5,069 bases of DNA from a bacterium (GTDB lineage Bacteria; T1Sed10-126): the NCBI GenBank assembly GCA_003554945.1, contig PWHN01000052.1, forward strand, positions 1-5,069, given 5' to 3'. Shown here piece after piece: positions 590 through 5,069 of this stretch. Below the pieces are notes generated by a model that saw only the letters and a list, made by a program, of their open reading frames with translations, was not told where the DNA came from and made no database searches. Both the position numbers and the translations under genes were made by a program. How positions within the stretch are numbered: position 1 is the stretch's first letter; each line of letters starts with the position of its first letter.

Positions 590-670
590 AGGATTTTTTG
601 TTATTTACGATTTCAGATTCCGCCCCCTATCGACGAAACGTAACAGAATTATTTGAGATTACCGCTTATA

Positions 671-801
671 GGCCCAAAAAGGGGTGTGTTCACATCAATC
701 TCGAAATCTTCAAGGATTTCTCCGAGGTATAAATAAGGATAACCGGGCTCATCCCGAGTCCATCCTCATTTATAAATCCGTTCAACACCCCTTTTAGGGC
801 C
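671..801. repeat. 131-nt nested inverted-repeat element, three-way-junction shape
   Basis: The ends (671-687 and 785-801) are inverted copies matching at 16 of 17 positions; the outer motif is GGCCC-A/T-AAAAGGGGTGT. They enclose two separate hairpins. Hairpin A (700-726) pairs CTCG with CGAG and AAATC with GATTT, with a three-base bulge. Hairpin B (728-774) pairs TATAAAT with ATTTATA, then AGGAT with ATCCT past one mismatch, and is capped by CGGG-CTCAT-CCCG. As RNA this is a clean three-helix junction. Two readings remain: a structured RNA (cis-leader or small RNA), or a MITE-like mobile element with terminal inverted repeats. I see no flanking target duplication, which weakly disfavours a recent insertion. 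It matches no riboswitch class I can recognise. Confidence 0.6.
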
Positions 802-925
802 AACTGGAGAAAAAATTTGCATTTCAAGCAAAGGGTGCGGAACGTGAATACGATGATGAGGGGGTATGGGATAGATCCGATTCAAGTCTGGAACAGGTTT
901 AAAAAACCATTAAATTTGATACCCT

Positions 926-2884: not shown

Positions 2885-2965
2885 GTTGCCCTTAACCCAC
2901 CGCTGCATGGTAAGAAGGTTTTTAATAAGTGACGTAGTTTGTAAAAACAACAAGAAAAACCTGTG

Positions 2966-3001
2966 ACTTAGATAGTTTAGTCAGCACTAAACTATCTAAG
3001 T
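2966..3001 (-). terminator. 16-bp-arm palindrome between convergent genes, probable terminator
   Basis: The arm ACTTAGATAGTTTAGT (2966-2981) is separated by CAGC from its exact reverse complement (2986-3001). Read on the minus strand it lies about 47 bases after the stop of the gene at 3049-4557 and is followed, after a few bases, by a T-rich tract (complement of the A-run at 2955-2959). That fits a terminator for that gene. On the plus strand no T-run follows, so its effect on the cpdB-like gene is uncertain. The stem is AT-rich, weaker than typical terminators but long. Confidence 0.55.
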
Positions 3002-3048
3002 TAGGTCAATGAAACTTAGTGTTTCGAACCAGGATAGAGTTTGGGTAA

Positions 3049-4557
3049 TTACTGGAGTTCGTGGAGCCTTAAGTTGTGGAAACTGGCTCTGTAATCGCCG
3101 CGATCCAGCCAGCTTTTTGCGTAAATGCCTACCTGTGCCTGTTGTGGAGTGAGAGAAATTTCTACCGGGGTTAATTTCCGCCATTCGTCTTCTCCGGAGG
3201 GGCGGAACAGCGGAACGTATTTTCCGTCCTCATAGGCCAACCCTATTTCTTTAGCTATACCATCGTATTCACGGACAGTCGTGATGTCTTCATCCGGTTT
3301 ATTAACCATTAGTCGGGTAATATTTCCTTCTCCCGTTGGCCCCCAGTGAAACCAGTTGTTCTGGCCTGCGAAAACCACTATACCCGATTCGCGGCCGTAT
3401 TCAACCTCAAAATTTAGACCGGTTTCGAGTAGCCACTCTTCTGGTAGCTCCCCGTCGTAAAAAAGCCGGGGTGCTGTAACTCTGCCATACCAGAGGGCTG
3501 ATTCTTGCCCGGCATGTAGCTCTACCTCGTTTGGCGTATGTGAGTAGTCGTTCCCCCTGTCACCGTATTCAATTTCAACCTTATCTTCAAATTTTTCACT
3601 TGACCAATGGCTGTCCAGTAGTGTCTCGCCAAACCGGGGACGATAGCGAGCGTAAAGGTCCATGTAGCCGTAAGTCTGAATTGTATAATCTCCCGCCGGA
3701 GCGTCGGGGTCGATAAGAACTTCAACATAACCGTGGAGCCCGGTCTGATAAACGTCAACGTTGTAACGGTCCAGTCGATCCAACACTTCGTCGTGTGGAT
3801 GGTCGTAGGGACTATCCTCAGGGGCGGGTATAATAGCTGCGTCGGGGCGAGTATTTTCAAGCAGAATCCGGCCGGTGGAGGTGCTGCTTCCGTGATGGCC
3901 GGCTTTTAAGATATCTACGTTATCAATCAGTTCTTCTCGAACCCACTCGTCCTCCTGCCGGATGTACGCATCGCCCGTGGTGAGGATAGTGACGCCGTTA
4001 ATTGTGATAGGAAAACTGATAGAAAGTTCGTTAAGATCGCCGCGGGGAGGATCCGGTGGATTAATAATGTCAACAGTGAGTCCCGGTAGCAGTTCCAGGT
4101 TTTGTGTTCGATGGACTGTTCGATAACTGATTCTTTCTGTGTCTATTCTCTCCAGAAGATCCATGTAGGTCTGTCCGGTATGATCGTTTTGGACGTCCCA
4201 TACTTCACCAATTTCATAATTATCTAACAAAGTCTCAGTACCGCCGATATGATCCATGTGAGGATGGGTGAGGACAAGCGTATCAATGCGTTCAACCCCC
4301 ATGTAATCAAGCCAGCGGGTGAGGGCGGCTACGCCGCCTGCAGTTGCTGCGTCGATAACGGCGACGTGACCGTCGGGACTGACGAGAGCAGTGCCGTCCG
4401 CCTGGCCGACGGGAGCAGCGACGTAACGCCAGAGACGTGCCCCGGGGTCGGCGGGAACGTCGTCATCGACAGGACTCCAGTACCAGTAAAGTCCGCCGGC
4501 CAGAGCAATTGAAATCAGGAGCAAAACAAAGATTTTGGTCCAGGAAATACGTCTCAT
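3049..4557 (-). CDS. exported ComEC-like metallo-beta-lactamase-fold hydrolase with C-terminal ConA-like domain
   Basis: The 502-residue protein starts at an ATG six bases after AAAGGA (minus strand, 4564-4569). Residues 8-27 form one hydrophobic segment after MRRISWTK, a signal anchor or uncleaved signal peptide, so the rest should be outside the membrane. Residues about 43-285 are a metallo-beta-lactamase fold of the ComEC/Rec2 type: VGQAD (50-54), VID (67-69), the metal site HPHMDH (98-103), TTGD (193-196), KAGHHGSS (218-225) and DHPH (252-255). The usual DVGQGD motif is altered to PVGQAD. No ComEC channel domain is present, so it is not a complete competence protein. Residues about 310-500 look like a concanavalin/DUF1349-type beta-sandwich (LLDSHWS near the start, W374, SGIVVFAGQNNW, regular strands, final YRASFHNLRL); this is pattern recognition with moderate confidence. 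Related domains act as nucleases or phosphodiesterases; the substrate here is unknown. Confidence 0.9.
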   Translation of the reverse strand: MRRISWTKIFVLLLISIALAGGLYWYWSPVDDDVPADPGARLWRYVAAPVGQADGTALVSPDGHVAVIDAATAGGVAALTRWLDYMGVERIDTLVLTHPHMDHIGGTETLLDNYEIGEVWDVQNDHTGQTYMDLLERIDTERISYRTVHRTQNLELLPGLTVDIINPPDPPRGDLNELSISFPITINGVTILTTGDAYIRQEDEWVREELIDNVDILKAGHHGSSTSTGRILLENTRPDAAIIPAPEDSPYDHPHDEVLDRLDRYNVDVYQTGLHGYVEVLIDPDAPAGDYTIQTYGYMDLYARYRPRFGETLLDSHWSSEKFEDKVEIEYGDRGNDYSHTPNEVELHAGQESALWYGRVTAPRLFYDGELPEEWLLETGLNFEVEYGRESGIVVFAGQNNWFHWGPTGEGNITRLMVNKPDEDITTVREYDGIAKEIGLAYEDGKYVPLFRPSGEDEWRKLTPVEISLTPQQAQVGIYAKSWLDRGDYRASFHNLRLHELQ

Positions 4558-4740: not shown

Positions 4741-4788
4741 AAAGTATCTTTTCTCGGGGGATTAACTTTGTGGGCTTTTTTGGCGTCT

Positions 4789-4846
4789 TCATTGTCATTG
4801 TGGGTATGAACTATCGCTTTTCATTACGGACCACAATCAGCAATGA
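4789..4846. repeat. imperfect inverted repeat
   Basis: TCATTG (4789-4794) and ATTGTGG (4797-4803) pair with CAATGA (4841-4846) and CCACAAT (4831-4837), with a 2-versus-3-base internal loop. It contains one of the four GTCATT motifs of the repeat tract to its right and is probably a diverged member of the same repeat family. Confidence 0.5.
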
Positions 4847-4880
4847 CGTCAAGTTCAGAAGCGAGCTTGACCTAACGCTT

Positions 4881-5069
4881 GTCATTCCCCGGTTTGCTCT
4901 ACCGTTCGTCATTGTCCGGAACGAATAACGTCCCAGGGCTTGACCGGGCAATCCAGAACTAACGAACGTCATTACCCGGCTTGACCGGGTAATCCAGCGA
5001 CTTTGACGTTGATCTTGACTTTCGCTCGTAGAACGTTCAAATTCAACGTCGCTGGATTCCCGCTTCCGC
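4881..5069. repeat. mosaic of degenerate REP-like palindromic repeats, cut by the window edge
   Basis: The one intact unit (4968-4997) begins GTCATT, has the stem TTACCCGG (4972-4979)/CCGGGTAA (4985-4992) and ends AATCCAG. The motif GGCTTGACCGGG followed by YAATCCAG occurs at 4937-4956 and 4978-4997 with 19 of 20 bases equal. GTCATT heads also stand at 4881 and 4908. An inverted tail (5048-5058) pairs over 11 bases with 4991-5001, so the last units face each other; GACGTTGA (5005-5012) also pairs with TCAACGTC (5043-5050). The final unit is truncated. This resembles the GTCATTCCCG/CGGGAATCCAG intergenic repeats of many bacteria; no transposase is present here. Confidence 0.65.

Follow-up and report, generated by a model that had tools for sequence, protein, structure and literature searches.

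The locus and its fold

The window (the whole stretch of DNA that was analysed, 5,069 nucleotides) contains a spacer that separates a 102-aa ORF, in which no Pfam family was found, from a 5'-nucleotidase-like gene. The ORF is followed at 544-585 by a near-perfect 42-base palindrome and then a T-run, which together resemble a strong terminator hairpin. A long inverted repeat (gacttagatagtttagt...actaaactatctaagt) lies at 2960-3003, between the 5'-nucleotidase-like gene and a convergent gene; positions 3049-4557 of the minus strand encode a 502-aa metallo-beta-lactamase-fold protein (Pfam Lactamase_B) with an N-terminal membrane segment, in a ComEC-like arrangement; and the repeats 'gtcattcccgg..gaccgggtaatccag' at 4770-5069 represent a different intergenic repeat family. 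The present analysis concerns a folded segment of the spacer, the features of which are listed in Table 1. No promoter-like site was found when we looked for one near this copy.

A first-pass annotation, made from the letters alone, had described at 671-801 a 17-base terminal inverted repeat with a single A/A mismatch enclosing two hairpins, the second of them with a bulge and an internal mismatch, and had judged that such nesting was unlikely to have arisen by chance. Each of these claims was borne out. Hairpin B has one internal mismatch and a four-base AACC bulge, and the outer inverted repeat is the sole one at such spacing in the 5-kb contig, with none seen in three simple shuffles. When region 661-811 was folded as RNA, the energy was -54.2 kcal/mol compared with -33.2 +/- 3.7 kcal/mol for dinucleotide shuffles (z -5.6), and none of 200 shuffles was as good. 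Folds of the core region calculated for the opposite strand and with DNA energies gave z values of -5.0 to -6.1 against shuffles.

Table 1. Features of the folded core and of the element that surrounds it (window coordinates).
Feature	Position	Strand	Remarks
Left target-site duplication TACGAT	606-611	.	Repeated directly and exactly (6 bp) at 849-854
Whole mobile (MITE-like) element, 237 bp	612-848	+	BLAST match to contig C95; bounded by the direct repeats
Left terminal inverted repeat TTCAGATTCCGC	612-623	+	10/12 against the reverse complement of 837-848; similarity to ~630
Outer stem P1, left arm	671-687	+	GGCCCAAAAAGGGGTGT; pairs with 785-801
Junction strand J1, conserved	695-702	+	TCAATCTC here; family consensus TCATTCTC; from alignments
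Hairpin A (P2)	703-720	+	GAAATC/GATTTC, pairs 703-708/715-720; stem letters free, tip variable; covariation
Junction strand J2, conserved	721-727	+	TCCGAGG; near-invariant in all alignments
Hairpin B (P3)	728-774	+	13-bp lower stem (728-740/762-774), 6-bp upper stem (745-750/756-761); covariation
Hairpin B bulge AACC	741-744	+	
Hairpin B loop ATCCC	751-755	+	
Junction strand J3, conserved	775-780	+	AATCCG; from alignments
Outer stem P1, right arm	785-801	+	Reverse complement GGCCCTAAAAGGGGTGT; 17 bp with 671-687, one A/A mismatch
Right terminal inverted repeat GCGGAACGTGAA	837-848	-	Imperfect partner of 612-623
Right target-site duplication TACGAT	849-854	.	Exact direct repeat of 606-611

The folded segment is the core of a transposed element

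The extent first assigned to the feature, 671-801, is correct for the fold and too narrow for the repeated unit, which runs from 612 to 848 with duplications at 606-611 and 849-854. BLAST against the source genome identified a second copy on contig C95 (about 8682-8918) that was 97% identical over 237 bases and was flanked on both sides by a different 6-bp direct repeat, TTAATT. Both copies begin TTCAGATTCCGC and finish either GCGGAACGTGAA or GCGGAACGTGAG, the terminal inverted repeat being imperfect, and a search with the terminal repeat pattern matched only these two copies and one further site that is likely to be a chance match. Since the copies have terminal inverted repeats and each has its own direct repeat, we conclude that both have transposed, and that 671-801 forms the core, a three-way junction, of a short non-autonomous element that entered this site by transposition with a 6-bp target duplication. 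The features by which MITEs are recognised, namely terminal inverted repeats, target-site duplications of fixed length and dispersed copies without coding sequence, are all present; no cognate transposase was found with the terminal repeat pattern. The window copy sits in the spacer between the 102-aa ORF and the 5'-nucleotidase-like gene.

The same core is carried by several classes of element

Weak BLAST matches to hairpin B led us to repeats whose stems differed and whose junction letters agreed, and a covariance model (R1) was built from 16 cores. This model gave 63 matches in the source genome, about 55 of which were strong and full-length; the cores are three-way junctions of 112-150 bp and occupy mostly intergenic sites. 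As strict automatic detection of terminal repeats and duplications missed most copies, ends were anchored on the terminal repeats of each family. At least three classes of terminal repeat and duplication carry the same core in this genome. Class 1, the window family, has TTCANATTCCGC ends and 6-bp duplications; class 2 has GGCTCTRTTGAAATCC ends (variant GGCTTTGTAGAGATCC) and 8-bp duplications (TTACAAAA, GTAGTTTC, GAAGAAAA and AAATAAAA); and class 3 has CTAAAGTTTTGCG ends and duplications of ~7 bp (TAATTTA, AAACTAA and TTAGAAA). We take the class 2 ends to resemble those of the IS6 family; the source assembly contains no member of the IS6 transposase family (DDE_Tnp_IS240). The dispersed copies with flanking duplications that had been named beforehand as the mark of a mobile element are present, in the form of the copy on C95, the approximately 55 core copies and their duplications.

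Core-bearing elements were also found inserted in other core-bearing elements, at L067 (C89:17380-17600), L178 (C45:5787) and L167 (C69), and the empty site of the nested insertions can be seen in the intact host element (C7:3628 and C45:22603). Many contigs end within core elements (C7, C34, C41, C63, C100, C106, C113, C114, C16 and C97), so the copy number is underestimated, the repeats having broken the assembly. The genes enclosed by an inverted pair of cores on C7 were of housekeeping type and included no transposase.

Pairing is conserved while stem sequences change

The alignments comprised about 140 distinct copies, and as controls the pairing partners were shifted by one to three columns. 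Stem pairing was kept in 94, 92, 91 and 89% of cells (16, 55, 26 and 84 distinct sequences, respectively) compared with about 26-44% for the slid controls, although these figures favour the model in that alignments A3-A5 were fitted to it. In the six-genome alignment, 25 of 27 pairs had changed on both sides and 91% of cells were paired (31-44% in slid controls), and for the 84 copies from other genomes the corresponding value was 89% (34-44%). Nearly all paired columns covary, most pairs having changes on both sides. The part of the outer stem beyond three pairs lay outside the model and so gave an independent test of pairing: its mean score was 16.2 compared with 6.4 +/- 2.4 for arms taken from different loci, and 94% of loci scored above 95% of the control. 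Covarying stems, the other property for which a check had been proposed, were thus found across about 55 distinct copies from the source genome and 84 sequences from other genomes.

The junction strands behave differently from the stems and are nearly fixed across the family (TCATTCTC, TCCGAGG and AATCCG). Within families, diversity was 3-6% in the core and reached 16-47% in the parts on either side of it, which mostly belong to the same elements; the contrast is approximate, host flank or misaligned ends being included in some of the outer segments. As the core varies far less than its flanks, it must be under constraint, either at the resident site or for the spread of the element. We conclude that the family keeps its fold, and not its stem sequence, by selection, and that this widespread family is borne by elements whose terminal repeats are of several unrelated kinds; that the element is mobile and its fold conserved we regard as close to certain.

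Occurrence in other genomes

A BLAST search with the element in about 100 relatives gave a match in the source genome only. The stems diverge too far for BLAST, and the covariance model was needed. With the model, carriers were found among unrelated genomes (G284, G176, G124, G068 and G314), each with a single copy to a few copies. In the phylum of G124 the core was present in 74 of 395 genomes and 52 of 170 genera, with at least nine matches in many genomes; it was absent from the only other genome of the same family as the source. Further kinds of element ends were seen in these other genomes. The G068 cores (L194, L195, L205 and L206) lie inside repeats bounded by AAAAAGTAGGTAG and CTACCTACAAAATAAAAT, another set of ends.

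Searches of other kinds were unproductive. When the genome collection was scanned for exact occurrences of a 19-mer from hairpin A, all 23 matches were rejected as short chance matches of hairpin A alone, and two pattern scans of viral contigs gave none and then 18 short matches that the covariance model rejected. No match to the core was found in the plasmid and phage collections.

Strand, base pairs and orientation

RNA families usually hold several per cent of G-U pairs. Among the distinct sequences of other genomes, hairpin A had 314 Watson-Crick pairs, one G-U and one A-C, and hairpin B had 755, three and two, respectively. This near-absence of G-U fits folded DNA at least as well as RNA. 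A MITE-like element and a structured RNA had been offered at the outset as alternatives, and both proved partly right, the second in the sense of a structured nucleic acid under selection, given that the marks of a mobile element and covarying stems occur together; with P2 and P3 almost devoid of G-U, RNA is no better a reading here than folded DNA.

On this point the outer stem disagrees with the hairpins, for it does contain wobbles: over 61 distinct stems there were 55 A-C and 14 G-U (p 7e-7). Each plus-strand A-C corresponds to a G-U on the opposite strand, and the better fold is therefore that of the minus strand. This suggests that the minus strand is the one at work, whether as RNA or as single-stranded DNA. 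For copies between two same-direction genes, with neighbouring genes called by ORF length only, 47 lay along and 18 against the direction of the genes (p 4e-4); for the source genome alone the count was 17 to 7 (p 0.06), which is suggestive. Many cores in the phylum of G124 start 20-50 nt past a stop codon. The loops of both hairpins often hold UCC (GGA on the opposite strand).

Possible roles of the core

The explanation that we favour over a structured RNA, if with slightly less than even confidence, is that the core of these mobile elements is a strand-specific folded DNA signal that is REP-like in action. The substrates of TnpAREP are folded single strands, on which its action is strand-specific, and some members require a perfect stem, a single mismatch costing them their activity (PMC8266576). 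By a similar action to that of TnpAREP, which reads REP hairpins plus a foot motif, a trans-acting enzyme of the host or of a transposon would recognise the folded strand by its three conserved junction strands. The core would thus act in cis as a recognition structure while one strand is exposed as single-stranded DNA, as may happen in replication or transfer, and its reading would favour the copying or movement of any core-bearing element, so that many different elements could spread. Target duplications would be made separately, by an ordinary DDE-type transposase working on the outer repeats. Both the reader enzyme and the DNA nature of the working form are things that we infer, and the single-stranded-DNA mechanism in itself seems to us somewhat less likely than not. 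The favoured explanation draws on the second copy with its own duplication, the approximately 55 full-length copies, the covariation, the independent test of the outer stem, the low diversity of the core relative to its flanks, the several end classes, the hairpins nearly free of G-U and the strand-specific wobbles. It has against it that no cognate enzyme was found, that the IS6 transposase is absent despite IS6-like ends in one class, and that the frequent UCC in both loops is not explained by a DNA model. The orientation bias with neighbouring genes also speaks against a DNA reading, and transcription could matter.

A close second, which we consider less likely than not, is that the core functions as a structured RNA, either as a non-coding RNA or, within UTRs, as an element of cis-regulation or processing. 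It would hitchhike in different MITEs and be kept for its benefit to the element or to the neighbouring gene. Strong covariation with conserved unpaired junctions recalls riboswitch or ribozyme cores, and the very stable fold, the strand asymmetry of the outer-stem wobbles, the orientation bias and the frequent position after stop codons in the phylum of G124 would all suit such a role. However, P2 and P3 are almost without G-U, the wobbles indicate the minus strand yet the orientation bias puts the plus strand in mRNA, and the patchy, multi-copy distribution is that of mobile DNA. There is likewise no promoter-like site near the window copy, and no Rfam family matched above the gathering threshold, a permissive threshold giving only chance-level matches; known ribozymes and riboswitches were dropped on this ground. 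It is unlikely that we are dealing with an ordinary MITE family in which the fold is a by-product of nested palindromes from replication slippage and the conservation reflects recent copying. Such a family would typically have terminal repeats, duplications and nested insertions, as here, and MITE transcripts generally form stem-loops (PMC10969869). Across phyla, however, these junction strands are found again with stems and terminal repeats that are unrelated, the core is far less variable than the flanks of the same elements, and chance palindromes would not hold the three junction motifs at fixed places of the fold. Least probable of all, and very unlikely, is a role of the minus strand as decoy RNA for CsrA/RsmA or another GGA-binding protein, GGA being present in the two hairpin loops and in two of the junction strands. 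Both hairpins commonly have the loop NUCC, which gives GGA on the minus strand, but the loops of several genomes (G124 and G314) have no GGA, and CsrA binding does not call for the invariance seen in the longer junction strands. Overall, we would put at a little short of even the chance that a new class of nucleic-acid module, folded as a three-way junction with invariant junction strands, rides unrelated MITEs through many lineages and is either read as a folded single strand by a putative shared factor or is an undescribed RNA.

Comparison with known elements

No description of such a core element was found in the open-access literature, and the family, a folding mobile DNA or RNA, appears to be undescribed. 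We regard these as bacterial MITE/REP-like elements in a new form, and there is a fair chance that they make up a new class. They share with ERIC, BOX, Correia/NEMIS and QMITE a size of 100-300 bp, terminal inverted repeats, short target duplications, dispersed intergenic copies and a lack of coding capacity (PMC10969869). Unlike those MITEs, they contain a folded core, with invariant junction strands and free stems, that is common to elements with unrelated terminal repeats and to different phyla. We know of no MITE family with a folded core defined by junction strands across unrelated ends. Bacterial MITEs are usually viewed as passive insertion-sequence remains defined by their ends, whereas here the middle is conserved across phyla and different ends. 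Selection on the fold across differing ends implies that something recognises the fold, and the recogniser, once found, would point either to a new route of transposition or mobilisation via folded DNA or to a non-coding RNA class that is new and widespread.

REPs and REPINs, with TnpAREP (RAYT), likewise have variable near-perfect stems beside a conserved unpaired motif, many intergenic copies and some head-to-head pairs (PMC8266576, PMC3733652). REPs are, however, single hairpins of 20-40 bp tagged GTAG or CGTC, whereas the present core is a three-way junction of 112-150 bp that lies within elements bounded by terminal repeats and duplications, and the conserved strands here (TCATTCTC, TCCGAGG and AATCCG) do not contain the GTAG (or CGTC) tag of the hairpin foot. 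Integron attC sites and IS200-IS605 ends are also sequence-tolerant folded single strands that are used strand-specifically (PMC8266576), but the conserved letters of the present family lie in the junctions and not at the stem foot, and no integrase or TnpA is known nearby. To our knowledge, the letters of the attC core site are not apparent in the core. The three-way-junction riboswitches and ribozymes of Rfam similarly have variable stems around a conserved junction, but the core described here is patchy, multi-copy and mobile, and its hairpins are nearly without G-U. IStrons and other transposon-borne structured RNAs resemble it as structured modules on DNA transposons (PMC4227781); they differ in that group I introns are of much greater size and are included in Rfam, and the present core has no self-splicing core.

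Paired and modified cores

Head-to-head pairs of two different cores within one CTAAAGTTTTGCG-bounded element were seen at L165 (C114:1-113 on the plus and 196-307 on the minus strand), L164 (C101:28284 plus and 28439 minus) and L163 (C106), and these resemble composite or REPIN-like doublets. Five cores have a similar insert of ~100 bases, itself apparently structured, in the tip of hairpin A: L224 (C102:63800-63902), L225 (C81:89-191), L226 (C24:20980-21082), L163 (C106:36042-36144) and L189 (C95:102173-102275). In four to five other cores (C47:26144, C102:58150, C98:3956, C38:4222 and C97), hairpin A is replaced by a long hairpin with the stem CCGAGCACTCAAT.
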